Of a stretch of 64,000 bases of DNA, positions 3,479 to 53,387 are shown in pieces; position 1 is the first letter of the stretch; every line of letters starts with the position of its first letter. The position numbers and the translations under genes were made by a program. The stretch is from Anadara kagoshimensis. Taxonomy: Eukaryota > Mollusca > Bivalvia > Arcoida > Arcidae. The notes under the pieces are model-generated. The model did not search any database and was not told the DNA's origin. It saw nothing but the letters and a program-made list of their open reading frames with translations. The stretch lies in contig CM037861.1 of the NCBI GenBank assembly GCA_021292105.1, positions 25,785,110-25,849,109 of the forward strand, in the 5' to 3' direction.

Positions 3479-4931
3479 GTTCCACTTTCTAACTCCTGGT
3501 GCTATTGTCGCATTTCAGTACTGTGTTCCACTTTCTAACTCCTGGTGCTATTGTCAAATTCCAGTACTGTGTTCCACTTTCTAACTCCTGGTGCTATTGT
3601 CGCATTTCAGTACTGTGTTCCACTTTCTAACTCCTGGTGCTATTGTCAAATTCCAGTACTGTGTTCCACTTTCTAATTCCTGGTGCTATTGTTAAATTCC
3701 AGTACTGTGTTCCACTTTCTAACTCCTGGTGTTATTGTCAAATTCCAGTACTGTGTTCCACTTTCTAACTCCTGGTGTTATTGTCAAATTCCAGTACTGT
3801 GTTCCACTTTCTAATTCCTGGTGCTATTGTTAAATTCCAGTACTGTGTTACACTTTCTAACTCCTGGTGTTATTGTCAAATTCCAGTACTGTGTTCCACT
3901 TTCTAACTCCTGGTGCTATTGTCAAATTCCAGTACTGTGTTCCACTTTCTAACTCCTGGTGCTATTGTAAAATTCCAGTACTGTGTTCCACTTTCTAACC
4001 CCTGGTGCTATTGTCACATTCCAGTACTGTGTTCCACTTTCTAACTCCTTGTGCTATTGTCGCATTTCAGTACTGTTCTCCACTTTCTAACTCCTGGTGC
4101 TATTGTCGCATTTCAGTACTGTGTTCCACTTTCTAACTCCTGGTGCTATTGTCGCATTTCAGTACTGTGTTCCACTTTCTAACTCCTGGTGCTATTGTCG
4201 CATTTCAGTACTGTGTTCCACTTTCTAACTCCTGGTGCTATTGTCGCATTTCAGTACTGTGTTCCACTTTCTAACTCCTGGTGCTATTGTCATTCAGTAC
4301 TGTGTTCCACTTTCTAACTCCTGGTGCTATTGTCAAATTCCAGTACTGTGTTCCACTTTCTAACCCCTGGTGCTATTGTCAAATTCCAGTACTGTGTTCC
4401 ACTTTCTAACCCCTGGTGCTATTGTCAAATTCCAGTACTGTGTTCCACTTTCTAACCCTGGTGCTATTGTCATTCAGTACTGTGTTCCACTTTCTAACTC
4501 CTGGTGCTATTGTCGCATTTCAGTACTGTGTTCCACTTTCTAACCCCTGGTGCTATTGTCAAATTCCAGTACTGTGTTCCACTTTCTAACCCCTGGTGCT
4601 ATTGTCATTCCAGTACTGTGTTCCACTTTCTAACCCTGGTGCTATTGTCGCATTCCAGTACTGTGTTCCACTTTCTAATCCTGGTGCTATTGTCATCAGT
4701 ACTGTCTTCCACTTTCTAACTCCTGGTGCTATTGTCGCATTTCAGTACTGTCTTCCACTTTCTAACTCCTGGTGCTATTGTCGCATTTCAGTACTGTCTT
4801 CCACTTTCTAACTCCTGGTGCTATTGTCGCATTTCAGTACTGTGTTCCACTTTCTAACTCCTGGTGCTATTGTCGCATTCCAGTACTGTGTTCTACTTTT
4901 TAACTCCTGGTGCTATTGTCGCATTCCAGTA
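3479..4931. repeat. 46-bp tandem satellite, about 32 copies
   Basis: The unit reads TTCCACTTTCTAACTCCTGG, then TGCTATTGTC and a variable joint before CAGTACTGTG. The joint has several states: CGCATTT, AAATTC, TAAATTC, CACATTC and shorter forms missing 3-5 bases. Variants are grouped, with TAAATTC and TGTTATT forms in the first half and CGCATTT forms in the second. This suggests local amplification. Open frames along it are incidental. Confidence 0.96.
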
Positions 4932-6187: not shown

Positions 6188-8404
6188 ATCTGTAATATTG
6201 TAATTTTGTTCTTTTCGGGAAAATCTTCCAGATTGATTTAACGAAACGAAACGAATGGTTAACTAATGTTCAGTAAGTTGGCGTAATGAACGCTGATGGG
6301 ATATATTGTCGCTGAATAAATTTACATTTTTATCAAATAAGTTGTGAAAATGTTTTTTATACTCATCACCATTATCGCCATCACTAACTTTGATTTAAAT
6401 CCTCAAAAATCGGTGATAATGAACCATTAAAGGTAATCCATTGTGACTAAATGTCTTGTTAGAGGAGGACCCAAGTGCTGATCTACATATCATTTATAGT
6501 ACTTCTTTCTTCCAATTTTATATTGTTTTATACTGGAAAGAAATGATGGAATATCTGTGTTTTTTCTAGCAAAAAGATGTGAGTTATCAATTTGATTATG
6601 AGTAAAGCCACTTAGGACTTTGTCTTTATTATTGAAGCAAAGGTTTTGGTCATGGGTTGCTAACTGCATTATGCTGCTTTCAGCTTGCAATCAAAAGGAA
6701 CGGCTTTTTCGTCGTGTCCAGTTTGCAATGGATTCAACAATTTCATCCTGCACAGCTTGTTGTGGATAGGGATGGTAACGCGTTTTTTTGTTTCATTTAT
6801 ATCTCAATGGACACAGAACTCTCACACCGACTCTGACCGGTAGACGACAGTGATGGTTTAATACTCTAAACCTGCTGTGTTTGGATTGCAACCAACATTA
6901 GTCATTGATGTGTGATAGTTATATGTTGTATTGGGCAATGGTAGGTTTTGGATACGACCAAGAATGAACATTTAGAGTGCATTTTTATCAAAAGTAAACT
7001 TAATTTCAATACTGAAATGATGTTCCGTCTTTTTTGCTTTTATATCTTGCCGTATGTTCCTTCCTCTTTGCCTATTTTATCTTTGTTTAGCCGTTTGTCC
7101 TATTGTCTTTGTCTATACACCCTCTGTTTGATGACGCCGTTTTCTCGCCGTATATAGGTATGCCTTTAATTTTATCCATTGTTTTGTCCTAATTTTTACA
7201 TGCTATCCGTCAAAAGTAAAAATCAGAAATGATCATTACTCATCATTGCATCTGATTGTTGAGAAACTCAAAATGACTTTGCAACAAAATTGCTGGCATG
7301 CACACTTGTATGTTCCCTACGTAAATGACCACATGTATAACGTCCACATTTTAAGATAAAGTTTAAGTAGGATTTTAAGACTTTATGGATATTTCTCTGA
7401 CTGACATTTATTGTTAATTCCGTGTATTTCAAATAAACTTCCTTCATCTTTGACAGCTATGACAATTTAACTGCAATATGAAGTCATCTTATGTGAAATC
7501 ATCTAATGCATCAACTCTTCAGCATTTTACAGCTTACGTCTTTCCCCGCCTATGGAATGACTCAGCTTTTAAACTCCTTTACACTTTTACACAGTTAAGA
7601 CCTTGTCTTGGAGTCCCATTCCGAACTTTAGTCCGGTTATTATATAAGAACCTCGGAATACTAATACATTTTAAGGTCATTTCATTGTTCGAATTTTTCG
7701 AATAATGTACCAATGTCACCATTTTATGATTCCTATTTCAAGTATAATTTGAACATTTTAAAGCCCGCGTTACACTGTCCCGAAATATTGACAACCAATG
7801 ACCACATGAAAATGAAATCGATCTGATCGTGAAACCTTCGGCTATTCGTAATGGCATCATTAATCATCGTATGGCCGCCTCTTCATTTTTTCAGACTTAG
7901 GTAGCAAAATCGTGAGCGATGACAAAATCTTTGGCATGTAAAAAAATTGAAAAGGACCATGCAACATTTACTCAAATACAAGCAAAATTCTTATTTTTCA
8001 AATTCTTTAACTTAAAACTTTTTCCAAACTTTTATGCGCCCGTTTCGCTATGCAAAAAAGGATTAATTTTTTAATTTGAAAAAAGTACTATTTTGCCGCC
8101 ATAAAAACTTCGCCGTTTTCAATTTGGTACTTCAAACCAAAACTTCAAAATAGTATCTTGCTTGGTTAATAAAATAATATACATTGCCTAGTAATGACAT
8201 TTGTATTTGAAATATGTTGGTGTGCTATTTTTTTTAATTAGTTTTAATCCCCGAGTTCAGATTTAACGTCACAACTTACGCCATACAATATCAGTCATAC
8301 AAGAAATTAATGTCAATTTTTTTCAAGAAAAAAATACATACAGGACATAACTAAAACCAAAACAATGATATTTGATAATGAAAGTCGTAATAAAAAACAT
8401 GATA
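6188..8404. other. Intergenic, nothing recognised
   Basis: AT-rich sequence without a supported gene or repeat family. Open frames of 66-75 codons show no recognisable motif. Confidence 0.5.
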
Positions 8405-45715: not shown

Positions 45716-45760
45716 TCTTTAAATTAAAGATGTAGAACACGATGATACATGACACAGATA

Positions 45761-46700
45761 TAGCCCAAGAGCTAGTGGGGTTTGAAATATGTGTCAATGG
45801 CCAAAAGCTTTGAAGGTTGTTTCTGATAGAAAAATGTCTGTAGTTTTCGAATTTGGGCGTCTTGTGAATGAACTCGTTTCCGATTTTTTTTCAGACGCGA
45901 GTTTTTACACTAGAATCGCATTTTTCAGCCGGTTTTTCGGTAATTTGATAATTCTGCATTATGGACGCGATATGGCCTTAAAATGTCTTATTACTGATGC
46001 GGTTATCAAGAATTATGATCATTGTTGACATTTAAGTTAAAAACTTCTTGATACATTTCAGATTTTTTTTTAAAATAACTATTTTAGGAAAAAAATAGAC
46101 CAAAAATTTTGCGTTTTTAATATTTTGCCCTCTTTTATGTCTTATAAAAAAATAATAAAAGCATTTAAGTGAAATGTTTTACCATATTGTCACAGCCTAA
46201 TGTGTTTTGCATTCAATAAAAGTAGCTGCATATCATTTGGTAGGAAATTGCGGCACCCACAGTGGAAAAACTTTCCCCTACCCCAAAAATTGCAAATTTC
46301 TCAAAAAATCGATCTTTACTACAAATTTTGCTATTAGTTGCCATACTGATTGTTATACCGTGTAAGCTTTAATACTTGGGTGACAACATTGAAGACCTCT
46401 AACTAAAAACTTCTTGTTAAGCATTCAATCTCAATTTTGTGGCCAATTTTAAACAACCGAGTTTTGCGTTTTTACTTAATCTTTATTCGTTAAAGTCTTG
46501 TAGCGCATTCAAAAAAAGCCTGATTATCAATATACTATTTTATTTAGAATCCCTGATGTGTGTGCTTTATTGTGCAAGTATAATGTGTAACAAAATCGTC
46601 ACATTAACCCATTACCCACGATTTATTCTTCCCCTACCCCAATATGCTAACGATATGCGAATTCACGGGATATACTGTGTTAGTGCTCTTAGACAGGCTG
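45761..46700 (+). repeat. Left terminal inverted repeat of the Academ-like element
   Basis: As far as I can read, bases 45761 to about 46558 are identical to the reverse complement of the right end, including long A and T runs. From about 46558 to 46700 the match falls to a patchy similarity. The motif CCCCTACCCCA occurs twice, near 46273 and 46632. Minus-strand AATAAA signals at 46622-46627 and 46566-46571 lie 110-170 nt beyond the transposase stop codon and could end its transcript. Confidence 0.9.
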
Positions 46701-46736
46701 GTTCAAAATAACTCGTATTCATTCAGAATTATAATT

Positions 46737-48887
46737 TCATTCATCATCAGTGTCTTCACTATCACTACTGTCGGATTCACGTACATCCTCATCTTCTCCC
46801 ATGTCATCCTCTGTAAAAGTTGTACTGTCCATCTTCAGTCTTATATCTTTCGGAATCTGTTCACCTTCAAACCAGTGAATCGCATACTTGTTATTTTCTT
46901 TTTTCCATCCATTTTCTTGTGGAGTATTTAATGTAGGACAACTGCAATTGGCATGTTTCCAAAAATATGCAACATATTCTGTTCGGAGGATTTTCTGAAC
47001 AAGAACACTTTTACAAGGAGGTAGTGAACTCGGATCGGCTCCTTTGAGCTTTTCTAATGGGTCAGTTTGATTTGTTGGAGCGTATTTCTCTCTGAAAATG
47101 GCAAATCGTGCCTCATTTACTGTTTTAATGTTTTTTTTGCCATACATTTCACAGACAAAAGATTCCATTACCTTCATATCTCTTTCATTAACTCTTTGAT
47201 TTGTTCCAATATTTGAGAAAACGCTTCTGAAAGTTGCACTTTTTTCAACGATATTATAAGGCCTAATTTTACCTTTTCTAAGAAATGCTGCAGTATAATC
47301 ACATCCAGTGAAAGCATGGATAGCTGGAAGAACTTGGCACATTTCGATCCCAATTTCATTGGACAGTTTTGTTAGATCAATAAATCGCCTAGTATTGGTG
47401 CCGTCAGTGCCTGAATCCATCCATATGTTTGCATGTATTTGGTGACAATGATACAATAAAATAACCATTACATCCGTGTCATTTGCTCTAACCACTACGT
47501 TAGGAGAATCGGACCTTGAGGCAATGTATTGCACATGTAAGGTGATCCTGGTATCTGCCTCCTCGTGGGTACAGGCAAGATTGGACACTTCACTGCACAC
47601 TACTGTTGCATCATTTTCGCAATAGAATTGATGGCAGTGGTCCTCTGTTGCATAATATAATGTATGGCCTGCAAGAATGTCAGCATAGTTATCATTCTTC
47701 CATTCTTGTAGCAAAAACGATAGTAATGACCTCTTGAAATTAGCAGATTTCAAAGCTGAACGGAAATCATGAGGTCGCTTTTGTTTTGGGCCCATTACTA
47801 CAATATCTGGTCCACTGCTCTCTCCTCGCATATCTCTTTCAATATCTTTGATGGATGGATGGACATATGTGTCACAAACAAAGTGTATTTCTTTTGCCAG
47901 TTTACATAATAGCTTGAGAATGGTTTTGGCTACACCTTCAAAAGTATCTGGTAGGTTTGACAGCAACTGTATAAGGAACATGGCATCAACGACATAAGCA
48001 TCAATTTGATTTGCAGCTGGAGGATCAGAATGAGCCTTGCTCTCTAACATTTTCATAAGTATTGATTTGTCGGTTTTATTCATATTCCCGTCAATTTGTG
48101 CAAGAGCTGGCGGCACGGGAGTGAGAGGATATTCAAAAACTTTCTGCAAGTTTATATCTGTTGTCGTTGCCAAAAACAAAAGCCTACCAAATAGATCACG
48201 TGAACACTGTAGCTGTATGATTTTCTTTGCTTTCACCTCAACCCGAACCTTAAGTGCCAAAGATGCAAAAGTGCGCAATTTGTTTCTTGTAATAGGTTTT
48301 TCAAATCTAGAGGGATCTGCAAAACAGCCATTTCTAAAGTCGTGAAAAGATTGCTCGCCATATTTTACACAACTAAGTATCTCATTTTTCACATCATCTT
48401 TGACTCTGTTACCAGTTGATATGCACAGGAGATCCTCATTTCTTATCTCTGTATCAAACGGATTCTTAGTTGCTTTAATACAGTCGATCAAACTACTTAC
48501 ATCTTTATTATCTCTCTGAATTCGCGACGGCTTGAGCTCTTGATTCACATCCCCCTTTTTCCGGATTCCAGTTTTTGAGAGAAGAGCACCAACGATAGCA
48601 CTGCGGACACTTCGTGTAATCATCCATCTTCGCCTGGCCGTATATGACTGGCTGAATGCAGAAATGCCAGTTAGACGAGATGCAGCATCAGCATTGATTG
48701 TCTGCTCAAGTGTCATGTCCACTGGAATTCTGGAAAATGATTTATTCGAGCGTCTTATAGACAAACCACCATTCTCAAGCATTGCTCTTGCTTGTGGATG
48801 ACTTATATCAATGTTAAGTAAATTTAAGTGATAGCGTGTCATCCATCTTGCATAGTTTGGTCTATTAGCTGCAAAAATACTGGACAC
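46737..48887 (-). CDS. Transposase fragment 5: C-terminal part with XPG/FEN-like nuclease module
   Basis: 716 codons starting at a GTG that is only a frame boundary; the true protein enters from the preceding fragment at 48873-48877. FAANRPNYARW and VDMTLEQTINADAASRLTG at the start are family landmarks. The nuclease module shows the order typical of FEN/XPG enzymes: YVVDAM (Asp301), HFVCDTYVHPSIKDIER (Asp339), HEEADT (Glu442, Glu443, Asp445), ANDTDVMVIL (Asp470, Asp472) and FTGCDYTAAF (Asp530). These correspond to the metal-binding acids of FEN1, so the site looks intact. Residues 620-680 (LPPCKSVL, YFWKHA, IHWFEGEQIP) are the conserved C-terminal block. Residues 690-716 are almost all acidic or serine. 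Confidence 0.9.
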   Translation of the reverse strand: MSSIFAANRPNYARWMTRYHLNLLNIDISHPQARAMLENGGLSIRRSNKSFSRIPVDMTLEQTINADAASRLTGISAFSQSYTARRRWMITRSVRSAIVGALLSKTGIRKKGDVNQELKPSRIQRDNKDVSSLIDCIKATKNPFDTEIRNEDLLCISTGNRVKDDVKNEILSCVKYGEQSFHDFRNGCFADPSRFEKPITRNKLRTFASLALKVRVEVKAKKIIQLQCSRDLFGRLLFLATTTDINLQKVFEYPLTPVPPALAQIDGNMNKTDKSILMKMLESKAHSDPPAANQIDAYVVDAMFLIQLLSNLPDTFEGVAKTILKLLCKLAKEIHFVCDTYVHPSIKDIERDMRGESSGPDIVVMGPKQKRPHDFRSALKSANFKRSLLSFLLQEWKNDNYADILAGHTLYYATEDHCHQFYCENDATVVCSEVSNLACTHEEADTRITLHVQYIASRSDSPNVVVRANDTDVMVILLYHCHQIHANIWMDSGTDGTNTRRFIDLTKLSNEIGIEMCQVLPAIHAFTGCDYTAAFLRKGKIRPYNIVEKSATFRSVFSNIGTNQRVNERDMKVMESFVCEMYGKKNIKTVNEARFAIFREKYAPTNQTDPLEKLKGADPSSLPPCKSVLVQKILRTEYVAYFWKHANCSCPTLNTPQENGWKKENNKYAIHWFEGEQIPKDIRLKMDSTTFTEDDMGEDEDVRESDSSDSEDTDDE

Positions 48888-49357
48888 ATTTTTCCTAAGC
48901 AGTAAGTAAATAAAGGTAGATCGTTAGTTCGACAAGATCTACTGAAAAGTAACAGAAGTTCAACTAATTCAATATACATAAACCAATACTGTGCTGTTGA
49001 TCCATGGTTTCCAGTTCTTGTGTCATTGGAAAAGGCTTCATACATATCAAAAATAGATTTTAAATTTTCTTGCTCTAGAACGTTTTGCATTTCTTCTGAA
49101 GAAGTATTTGTAATGAATTGTTCTAACTGCTCGTATAAAGATTCAGATATCTGACCATGCTCTTCCAGAAAAGACCGAAAATGGAGAATACGGAAAGAAA
49201 GAGATAATATAGTATGCATTCTCTGACATCTGTTATAATGCTTCCCTTTTATGAACCCATTTAGAGACCCTTCTGCCAGAACTTTGGTCTCGGTTAGCAC
49301 ATATGGTCCGCCAGAGCCCTCAATTAAGTGACCAAGAGCGCCAAAATATGCCAACAT
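48839..49357 (-). CDS. Transposase fragment 4: central block
   Basis: 172 codons. The homologous frame extends a few codons upstream of the ATG at 49357 as far as the break at 49373-49376. It carries LGHLIEGSGG and EGSLNGFIKGKHYNR followed by a helical stretch, a combination diagnostic of this protein family. It ends with GKMCPVF just before the frame change at 48873-48877. The remaining codons to the stop at 48839 are out of frame with the family. Confidence 0.85.
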   Translation of the reverse strand: MLAYFGALGHLIEGSGGPYVLTETKVLAEGSLNGFIKGKHYNRCQRMHTILSLSFRILHFRSFLEEHGQISESLYEQLEQFITNTSSEEMQNVLEQENLKSIFDMYEAFSNDTRTGNHGSTAQYWFMYIELVELLLLFSRSCRTNDLPLFTYCLGKMCPVFLQLIDQTMQDG

Positions 49358-50229
49358 TATATGGAAAGGACCAAAACATATGAAATATTGTCGTACTTTG
49401 GTGATTCTTCCGATTGTATCTGCATCGCTGGTTTAGCTATGGCAAGATCATAGTGGACAATTGCTGTGTTATCAGAACATTCCCGTGCCACAATCTGCGA
49501 TCGACGTAATGTTTCCGACACCACATCTAATCGGGTCGGTGGCAAACTTATATTGTCCATATAGCCTATCACTTGCTCTGGTAGATGATCTACTGTGATT
49601 AGAGAATTCCATCCTGACCACATGGGTATATTAGAAAATAAATGGTGACAAATCACCCATGTTAAATCCCTTTTTCTGGTCTCATTTAAATTAGAGGGGT
49701 CCGAAATTGCTTTTACGGGATATTGAAATTTTGTTATTTTTGGACGCTTTCTGTAAGATTCTAAAATAGGGTCCTCAATATCTAAAGAGCGTTTACGTTT
49801 CAATGACTTTGTTTGTGTAGTGGATACTTGTGGAATTCCTAGAGAGTCCCCCATTGAATGTTGTTCGTCGGGAGTGTTCTGGTAACATATTCCAACTGTG
49901 TCGTGCAAAGTTCCGCTTCCAGACAAAGTCTCGGTGTTTTCATCATAATTATCCCAAGCCGTTCCGGTTGACAAGTTTGGAATTTTCAGTAATCCATCAG
50001 GAGTTAGCTGATTCCTGTCTGATATTGTCATTGCAAGTTCAGTTTCAAGTGTCTCCGCAACATGGTAACTTATTGAGTGCCCTAAATGATTTAGTACTTC
50101 AATAATTTTCCTACTACCAGTCATACTTTTAAAACCCAGTCCAAGACATAAATGTTTTGATGGCTTTATTTCGCCATTGGTTACAGCAAACAAAGCATCA
50201 TCTGCTGCTGAACTGATGCATCTATTCAT
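49357..50229 (-). CDS. Transposase fragment 3: upstream of the central block
   Basis: 290 codons. The opening stretch (SSAADDALFAVTNG, then KPSKHLCLGLGFKSMTGSR and LNHLGHSISYH) is a conserved block of the family. It is followed by a low-complexity linker with a basic patch (SLKRKRS), a possible nuclear localisation signal. The frame overlaps fragment 2 by the ATGA at 50226-50229. It runs into the break at 49373-49376, after which the last codons are out of frame. Confidence 0.85.
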   Translation of the reverse strand: MNRCISSAADDALFAVTNGEIKPSKHLCLGLGFKSMTGSRKIIEVLNHLGHSISYHVAETLETELAMTISDRNQLTPDGLLKIPNLSTGTAWDNYDENTETLSGSGTLHDTVGICYQNTPDEQHSMGDSLGIPQVSTTQTKSLKRKRSLDIEDPILESYRKRPKITKFQYPVKAISDPSNLNETRKRDLTWVICHHLFSNIPMWSGWNSLITVDHLPEQVIGYMDNISLPPTRLDVVSETLRRSQIVARECSDNTAIVHYDLAIAKPAMQIQSEESPKYDNISYVLVLSI

Positions 50230-51110
50230 TCTTTCAGAAGGTCTTTTGTTGAAGACCCTGTATATAGAGTTTTAAAAAACTGCATAAGTATGTCTGGGGG
50301 GTTAGCTTGGCCTTTCTGTATTTCATTTACAGTCAATGGGTTCTGTAATTGGGGACATGTCTTTGACATTTCTAATATTGTATTTCGCAACTGGTATGCA
50401 GCTTCAGTGACTTTGGAATTTAATAAAAACGTATTATGGAAACCTATAATCTGATCTGTATCTAGAAAGCTTGGATATAATATTTTGCCTTGTCGTTTAC
50501 CTATTTTACTCATGCAAATATCATCTTTGAAGTGATTTAGAAGTTTTACTTCTAAAGTCTGGATGGTATATGAGGAGCAATCAAGACCAATGTCCATCAG
50601 CATTGTAGTGTAATATTCATACAAGGAGGCAATTGTTACAGCTTGACCTTGTGCTATAACGTTTTTATTTATGTATTCGGTCAACCATTTAAATGCTTTT
50701 TCGTGTCCTAGCCTAATGTTGCCATATTCTGTCTTAGCAGACCCGGGTATACACCTCTCAGAAAGATTTAAGTAATGTTTTCGGCAGCTATGGTGATATT
50801 TAACCTCTTTAGCAACAAAATCTATATCACAAACTCTGGCAATCATATCTGTATCACCCAGAACCATTGCAGCATTTTTTATTTTTTCTCCCGCTTCCAA
50901 ACTTTCACAATTGCCTAACTGTTCCCTTTTCTTACCCTTCGTCAGGAGGCCACAAAACAAACATACGGGAAGAAAAATACCGGAGGAGGAAGTTTCGTCC
51001 GATAAATGTTCAGTGTGGGATCTTAAAGTGTAAGAAACTTCTTCTACTTCTACAGTGGAAAAAGACTCTAGTTCTTTTTTTGAGACAGCAGTGAAGTTCT
51101 TGTAACACAT
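50226..51110 (-). CDS. Transposase fragment 2: Cys/His-rich N-terminal region
   Basis: 294 codons from Met at 51110. The family frame continues upstream of this Met to the break near 51183-51191, so this Met is internal (context GYHRMCYKNF). Candidate metal ligands are the Cys of MCY, CLFC (Cys50, Cys53 of the fragment), Cys68, Cys94 and HHSC (His106, His107, Cys109) before the Tyr of RKHYL. This looks like the multi-Cys zinc-binding region described for Academ proteins. The fragment ends DLLKE at the frame break near 50226-50250. Confidence 0.82.
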   Translation of the reverse strand: MCYKNFTAVSKKELESFSTVEVEEVSYTLRSHTEHLSDETSSSGIFLPVCLFCGLLTKGKKREQLGNCESLEAGEKIKNAAMVLGDTDMIARVCDIDFVAKEVKYHHSCRKHYLNLSERCIPGSAKTEYGNIRLGHEKAFKWLTEYINKNVIAQGQAVTIASLYEYYTTMLMDIGLDCSSYTIQTLEVKLLNHFKDDICMSKIGKRQGKILYPSFLDTDQIIGFHNTFLLNSKVTEAAYQLRNTILEMSKTCPQLQNPLTVNEIQKGQANPPDILMQFFKTLYTGSSTKDLLKE

Positions 51111-51369
51111 TCTGTGATAACCATTGGTTTTAGGATCAAAGTTTTGAGGAAGATCTTGACAAATTTGTTTATATTTGTGGGATTTTGTTTTCGAAAGACG
51201 ATATCAGCAACTTTTGCCACTTTACTCCATGTTGTTTCATCAAAAGGTTTAATTTCTATATCTTGGAAACGTTTATCGACATGAAGGCAACAAACAAGAT
51301 TTGTTTCATCTGTGCTATCGCCCTGTAATATCTGTTTCCCTTAGATGTATCCAGCCGTGTGCTGGCCAT
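51111..51369 (-). CDS. Transposase fragment 1: extreme N-terminus
   Basis: The ATG at 51367-51369 opens MASTRLDTSKGNRYYR, then a break at 51321-51323 (GGG run) moves to the frame reading DETNLVCCLHVDKRFQD and DETTWSKVAKVADIVF. A second break near 51183-51191 leads to SHKYKQICQDLPQNF and joins fragment 2. The adjoining Cys residues (VCCL, ICQD) and the YHR-Cys-Tyr motif form the first part of the Cys/His-rich region. These frames are too short to stand out alone; their order and shared break direction identify them. Confidence 0.7.
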
Positions 51370-51867
51370 TTTGCAACACTTCTAATTGAAATGACAATGA
51401 GTTATCACAAACAAATCGCAAAATATTATTTACAGTGATTTTAATTCAGTCACGGAATCAAATAGAATTAACAAACAGATTACTTATCTGCGTCAAAACT
51501 TCATTGATTCTATTGTGAACACGGATTCTTTTTAAAAACAAATATTAAATAAAATCAACTTGTTCACACGAAATATAAACGGTAACAAAACAATAGAAAA
51601 AAGGGGTGAATAGTTTTTTCTTACTTATCATAAACAACAACCATATGAAAGTATCTATAATTGCAACCACGTGTGATTTGCAATGACAGAAAACGTAACA
51701 CAAACGCTTTGCGCAGCGCCATCTGCCGAGTCATACAAAAGGGCGTGGCACTATCATTGCTTAATAATACAAAAAATCAAAGCATTGAATAAACAAGCTA
51801 ACAGCGTAATTTACTATATGTTTCAAGTACAAATTTACGTTATAACACTCTACCGTGTTTAAAATCT
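51370..51867 (-). promoter_or_regulatory. Probable 5' leader/promoter side of the transposase gene
   Basis: About 500 bp of AT-rich DNA between the transposase ATG and the inner edge of the right terminal repeat, with no reading frame and no other repeat. By position it should hold the promoter and leader, but no TATA box or initiator can be assigned with confidence. Confidence 0.35.
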
Positions 51868-52811
51868 CACTGCCTGAGAACGCACAAGTGTAAAATCAAT
51901 ATCTCGCGAACTCGCTTATTTATTGCATATGGGGTAGGGGGAAGAATAAATTGTGGTGAAAGGGTTTGTGTGACGATTGTGTTATACATTATACTTGCAC
52001 AATAAAGCACAAACATCAGGGATTCTAAATAAAATAGTATATTGATAATCAGGCTTTTTTTGAATGCGCTACAAGACTTTAACGAATAAAGATTAAGTAA
52101 AAACGCAAAACTCGGTTGTTTAAAATTGGCCACAAAATTGAGATTGAATGCTTAACAAGAAGTTTTTAGTTAGAGGTCTTCAATGTTGTCACCCAAGTAT
52201 TAAAGCTTACACGGTATAACAATCAGTATGGCAACTAATAGCAAAATTTGTAGTAAAGATCGATTTTTTGAGAAATTTGCAATTTTTGGGGTAGGGGAAA
52301 GTTTTTCCACTGTGGGTGCCGCAATTTCCTACCAAATGATATGCAGCTACTTTTATTGAATGCAAAACACATTAGGCTGTGACAATATGGTAAAACATTT
52401 CACTTAAATGCTTTTATTATTTTTTTATAAGACATAAAAGAGGGCAAAATATTAAAAACGCAAAATTTTTGGTCTATTTTTTTCCTAAAATAGTTATTTT
52501 AAAAAAAAATCTGAAATGTATCAAGAAGTTTTTAACTTAAATGTCAACAATGATCATAATTCTTGATAACCGCATCAGTAATAAGACATTTTAAGGCCAT
52601 ATCGCGTCCATAATGCAGAATTATCAAATTACCGAAAAACCGGCTGAAAAATGCGATTCTAGTGTAAAAACTCGCGTCTGAAAAAAAATCGGAAACGAGT
52701 TCATTCACAAGACGCCCAAATTCGAAAACTACAGACATTTTTCTATCAGAAACAACCTTCAAAGCTTTTGGCCATTGACACATATTTCAAACCCCACTAG
52801 CTCTTGGGCTA
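51868..52811 (-). repeat. Right terminal inverted repeat of the Academ-like element
   Basis: Inverted copy of the left terminal repeat, ending at 52811 just before the ATA duplication. The outer 800 bp or so match the left copy exactly by eye. The inner end near 51868-52013 has diverged. It lies upstream of the transposase start, so it probably holds the promoter, but I see no clear core-promoter motif. Confidence 0.9.
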
Positions 52812-52966
52812 ATAGGTTCGTTTTAAAATAAACAAATATTTAAATGGAAATTTAAATATTTTATCGGCTCTCGAATTACACAAAATATTAATATACAAAT
52901 GTATCACAATGTGTCATCAACAACACAAATTGGAAACATGAATGAAATCTGACACATTTAACATAA

Positions 52967-53387
52967 GCTGACAAACGATGTCCAATTTCTGAAATTAACA
53001 AGACATTGTGTTAATTATTTGCGTTATTAAAATGCAAGTATTTAAAATCAACATATTAACTGACAGCTACGACTTGATAAATGGGATGGCTAAAAATGTC
53101 ACCGTTAAAACCAACCCATCAAGAAAATTGTCTCGTCGCCAGCTTCTTTTTGTCATACGTGAACTTTATATTCACGCCTGCTTGCTGACAAACGATGTCC
53201 AATTTCTGAAATTAACAAGACATTGTGTTAATTATTTGCGTTATTAAAATGCAAGTATTTAAAATCAACATATTAACTGACAGCTACGACTTGATAAATG
53301 GGATGGCTAAAAATGTCACCGTTAAAACCAACCCATCAAGAAAATTGTCTCGTCGCCAGCTTCTTTTTGTCATACGTGAACTTTATA
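52967..53387. repeat. Perfect 204-bp direct duplication with 13-bp spacer
   Basis: 52967-53170 and 53184-53387 look identical base for base, from GCTGACAAACGATGTCCAAT to CATACGTGAACTTTATA. The spacer is TTCACGCCTGCTT. An open frame crosses both copies but shows no recognisable family. The block lies 155 bp outside the right end of the transposon. Confidence 0.93.

Follow-up and report, generated by a model that had tools for sequence, protein, structure and literature searches.

AcademX transposons are described, in the part of PMC10045372 that treats them, as having target-site duplications of 3 or 4 bp and a nuclease, and portions of PMC10294476 report that Academ elements have been amplified in bivalves. 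Excerpted sections of PMC8812927 in turn state that the errors left in long-read assemblies are mostly homopolymer indels, which cause frameshifts, and that short reads prefer the error-free copy of a repeat, errors elsewhere staying uncorrected. Here we describe an AcademX-like element in a 64,000-nucleotide stretch of the Anadara kagoshimensis genome (the window; assembly GCA_021292105.1, contig CM037861.1, forward-strand positions 25,785,110 to 25,849,109), whose transposase-like reading frame is broken five times. As judged from the assembled copies, the five breaks are very probably errors left over in a long-read assembly, each a one-base deletion, within a very young, high-copy DNA transposon, because the window copy matches its sisters apart from these deletions and the copies differ mainly by indels; because the deletions rise with run length, lie in patches and also occur in young copies of a piggyBac family; and because the conserved genes looked at (HSP70 and NDNF) have open frames. 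Long reads would miss bases, chiefly in homopolymers; polishing with short reads would mend unique sequence and fail in near-identical repeats, where short reads may align to whichever copy is already free of error. The element as the animal carries it is probably intact, or almost intact, and one product of a recent burst; this state of the real DNA, the sequencing platform and a polishing step with short reads are what we infer.

The element occupies 45761..52811 on the minus strand (7,051 bp, against 7,056 bp in the majority sequence of 21 copies; termini TAGCCCAAGAG...CTCTTGGGCTA) and is bounded by terminal inverted repeats at 45761..46673 (3′ side of the gene) and 51899..52811 (5′ side), with 3-bp target-site duplications at 45758..45760 and 52812..52814. 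The arms, for which a length of 800 bp had been given earlier, measure 913 bp and are 98% complementary in the window copy. Between them, from 51369 to 46737 on the minus strand, the transposase-like frame is split into five overlapping open frames; counted from the first ATG, its length in the majority sequence is 1,545 codons. Features in common with AcademX transposons are the 3–4-bp duplications, named in the part of PMC10045372 cited above, the terminal inverted repeats (here the 913-bp arms) and, as in Academ, one long transposase-like protein. At 7.06 kb it differs from the mean of 5,565 bp found among the curated bivalve Academ elements in the relevant portion of PMC10294476, and it is called AcademX-like rather than a proven Academ.

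Five single-base deletions in the window copy

The search target was the animal's own genome assembly (1,115,223,567 bases in 36 contigs). With the longest protein piece as query, the best 61 of 1,026 candidates were scored, all of them 99–100% identical, and in 27 of these 61 places the frame, measured from stop to stop, stays open for at least 1,549 codons; with the DNA of the 5′ part as query, the best 40 of 211 candidates were scored, again all at 99–100%. Both searches combined give at least 87 distinct places on 16 contigs, the window copy included, with 99–100% identity over the piece searched. Near-identical copies with an open frame do exist in the same genome. Twenty other full copies, corresponding to the first 20 of the 60 non-window rows of the protein search, were fetched for comparison; having been picked by the 3′ part of the frame, they are biased towards copies in which that part is intact.

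Over about 7 kb, the window copy departs from the majority of the 21 copies by five one-base deletions, with no substitution and no insertion. Each break, on the minus strand, leaves a run one base shorter than in the sister copies: break 1 at 51338..51342 (near 51340; sister run of four), break 2 at 51202..51206 (near 51204; two), break 3 at 50240..50244 (near 50242; two), break 4 at 49381..49387 (near 49385; four) and break 5 at 48872..48879 (near 48877; six). The first four are private among the 21 copies, and the fifth run is also short in the copies designated L009 and L010. Five minus-strand frame changes, each due to one missing base, had been read from the letters of the window, and the comparison recovers exactly five and no other difference; the coordinates given for the sites had been off by 2 to 19 bases. 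The accompanying statement that all breaks lie at or beside runs of 3–5 bases holds for the three in homopolymers of three or more (runs of 4, 4 and 6 in the sisters) and fails for the remaining two, which fall in two-base runs.

Indels among the sister copies

Pairwise alignment to the majority gives, over the roughly 141 kb of the 20 other copies, 12 substitutions, one of which is at a site shared by two copies, a divergence of about one substitution per 12 kb. It also gives 113 indels, comprising 91 deletions (81 of one base) and 22 insertions (13 of one base); L014 is identical to the majority. BLAST shows 0–6 substitutions per copy in 19 of the 20; for L027, which it aligns as two pieces, the count is 13. 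An early count of 96 substitutions in 21 copies was discarded, consisting of multiple-alignment artefacts beside gaps.

Five indels, all of them deletions, are not surprising in themselves, because a load of five or more over the whole element is found in 8 of the other 20 and because five deletions out of five have a chance of 0.48, given the family's 81:13 one-base deletions to one-base insertions. Inside the reading frame, at least five indels are found in only one of the 20 (L009, with nine), a count biased low by the finding of these copies through the intact 3′ part of the frame; 12 of the 20 have at least one frame indel of a length not divisible by three, and in L012 two cancel. The lack of stop codons is already accounted for by the absence of substitutions in the window copy.

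Per base, one-base deletions become roughly 100 times as frequent as the run lengthens from one base to nine: the rate is 0.00016 at single bases, 0.009 in seven-base runs, 0.004 in eight-base runs and 0.017 in nine-base runs. The values for the long classes, the dip at eight included, rest on few events (2 to 9 per class). The indels are also patchy: 61 neighbouring pairs, window copy included, lie less than 150 bp apart, against a mean of 34 and a maximum of 46 in 2,000 permutations. Patches of 7–17 indels in about 50–790 bp, almost without substitutions, are found in L009, L010, L015, L021 and L027 (for example, at majority positions, seven at 3534–3588 in L009, twelve at 24–385 in L010 and seventeen at 6260–7046 in L021) and point to a locally poor consensus. 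Should the deletions instead be real, produced by a patchy process that puts indels and almost no substitutions into young transposon copies, the patches in these five copies and the one-base deletions of young piggyBac copies would be its traces; such a process might be a repeat-directed genome defence acting by frameshifting, as repeat-induced point mutation acts by base changes, or might lie in error-prone gap-filling tied to transposition. We consider this very improbable.

Older differences are opposite in kind: 17 substitutions are counted between the two arms of the majority sequence, together with 2 gaps, a ratio that departs from that of the later differences between copies with a Fisher p of 1.4e-12 and from that of the window copy alone with a p of 0.0005. 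This bears directly on slippage decay, in which the window copy would be genuinely dead, having lost five bases by replication slippage after its insertion. One-base deletions do concentrate in homopolymers, and homopolymers of 4–6 bases hold three of the five breaks; yet the five deletions in 7 kb are accompanied by no substitution, against the older proportion of 17 to 2, the same burst includes copies free of indels (L014 and L019), and the indel load per copy (0 to 19) does not track the number of substitutions (0 to 2 each). Of the two readings between which the earlier note had hesitated, assembly error is thus strongly favoured, and slippage, with no substitution beside five deletions, has only a slight chance of being correct.

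A third possibility is that the breaks were inherited, the window copy descending from one already broken, which intact relatives had mobilized in trans. Its starting point is that L009 and L010, whose flanks differ, carry break 5, and no other indel, in common with the window copy, together with the equal open-frame lengths of seven (1,389 codons) and five (1,188 codons) of the 61 scored places. Breaks shared by sister copies had indeed been named beforehand as a sign that they are genuine; four of the five are private among the 21 copies, and the fifth, found in 2 of the 20 others, sits in a six-base run and is inconsistent with a single inheritance beside three other recurrent sites, a pattern that would be as expected at a repeatedly hit homopolymer. 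Recurrence is seen at 9 of 105 distinct indel sites and yields 11 incompatible pairs; such sites have therefore changed repeatedly.

The groups of equal frame length behave likewise. In 1.1-kb stretches fetched from the 12 places, deletions at six-base runs are present in all 12: in the 1,389-codon group, one or the other of two neighbouring six-base runs lacks a base (four and three copies), the 1,188-codon group has one six-base run short in four copies and another in one, and one copy holds a deletion of each group. Because the groups split over several six-base runs, long runs are evidently hit repeatedly, and the inherited dead lineages at first suggested by equal lengths dissolve. We accordingly rank inheritance as the least probable explanation of all.

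Controls in piggyBac, HSP70 and NDNF

Seven copies of an unrelated piggyBac family, picked by similar scores, were compared in the same way. The five closer to their majority (0, 5, 6, 6 and 17 substitutions) have 1, 3, 1, 3 and 7 one-base deletions, respectively, and the two most diverged (71 and 37 substitutions) have none. The latter zeros are partly a matter of choice, because four of the seven rows, the two most diverged included, had open frames of 627–764 codons, the other three having 279 in at least one part.

Conserved genes served as a second control. Among the 65 HSP70 matches listed, of which the shorter are mostly exons, the seven longest outside contig C22 (12.2 kb) were judged; all are unbroken, with frames of 596–639 codons without a stop, where about four frame shifts would be expected at 0.33 per kb. 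In the window's NDNF exon the frame stays open for 454 codons. These open frames fit short-read polishing that fails in repeats. The clean state of NDNF and of the terminal repeats had been held against assembly error in the earlier note, an objection of little weight: with indels averaging the observed 0.81 per kb, a 1.36-kb NDNF exon would escape them with a probability of 0.33 and the terminal repeats with one of 0.23, and terminal repeats free of indels are seen in 4 of the 20 other copies. For NDNF the objection is weak also because unique sequence is where short-read polishing works, according to the polishing results excerpted from PMC8812927.

Several observations weigh against residual assembly error as the cause of the breaks. 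The case for it is built on assembled sequence rather than raw reads, and breaks 2 and 3 fall where the sister copies have no more than a pair of identical bases. Among the five young piggyBac copies, substitutions (34) exceed one-base deletions (15, with two sites each common to two copies), so that any excess of indels is weaker there than in the AcademX-like element. HSP70 and NDNF are under selection, by which real indels would be purged too, and their open frames do not, taken alone, tell error from real indels. Finally, the 5′ half of the transposase-like frame holds 18 one-base deletions where 41.6 are expected from non-coding run-length rates, a deficit in which a hint of selection could be seen; bootstrapping over copies gives the ratio an interval of 0.13–1.24, and the counts become 15 against 15.6 expected without three patchy copies and 8 against 15.6 when L009 is dropped too. 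That selection on the frame keeps down the number of coding indels is not established, and the 3′ part of the frame is unusable for such a comparison, the copies having been picked by a search with it.

Separately, the HSP70 search led to a place on contig C22 of the same assembly (728,465 bases; L052, positions 614500–619500) with a DnaK (HSP70) gene that has two in-frame TGA codons. Its neighbours are frames that we take to be GrpE-like, RmuC-like and RNA-methyltransferase-like; the four genes have 0 to 3 TGA codons read as Trp, and GC content is 31–32%. Contig C22 looks like the genome of a mollicute symbiont or contaminant inside the animal assembly.

Copies of the element and comparison with known systems

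The flanks of the copies are unlike each other save for short repeats (longest flank match 175 bp, at 79%), and each copy has its own duplication of 3 or 4 bp; the copies are therefore separate insertions. By script, the duplication is 3 bp in 19 of the 21 copies and 4 bp in L025; that of L021 was missed by the script and is 3 bp when the shifted end is read by eye. With its many open copies, the element appears to be part of a very recent burst and is likely still, or was lately, active.

Two local observations stand apart. L027, otherwise near-identical to the majority, has an internal deletion of 343 bp at majority position ~3006, which is possibly the onset of a non-autonomous derivative or else a mis-assembly. 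In the window, about 150 bp beyond the right end of the element, a perfect tandem duplication (52967–53387) has 204-base copies at a period of 217.

Pieces of the frame, in which an Academ-type DDE transposase domain was sought, gave no meaningful match in Pfam (five pieces), NCBIfam (four), PHROGs (three) or PDB sequences (two), collections among which there is no Academ profile, and a scan of viral contigs with the C-terminal piece found no relatives. The EAD, DTD and GCDYT motifs of the C-terminal piece bear a resemblance to those of FEN1/XPG nucleases, for which Pfam gave no hit; a single-sequence fold of 301 residues (mean pLDDT 36) was too poor to use.

If the breaks are indeed residual assembly errors, it is unsafe to take broken transposase frames in assemblies of this kind for decay, and tallies of dead versus live copies would be seriously in error. 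The comparison also brings to light an apparently very recent burst of an element that is probably of Academ type; its many open copies make it a candidate for the study of recent activity. In comparison with the repeat errors set out in the sections of PMC8812927 cited here, which concern bacterial genomes, the present case comes from an animal genome whose platform we infer, and two of its five breaks fall in two-base runs; it agrees with them in that the changes are mostly one-base deletions, rise in frequency with run length and lie in repeats, the conserved genes considered here remaining open.

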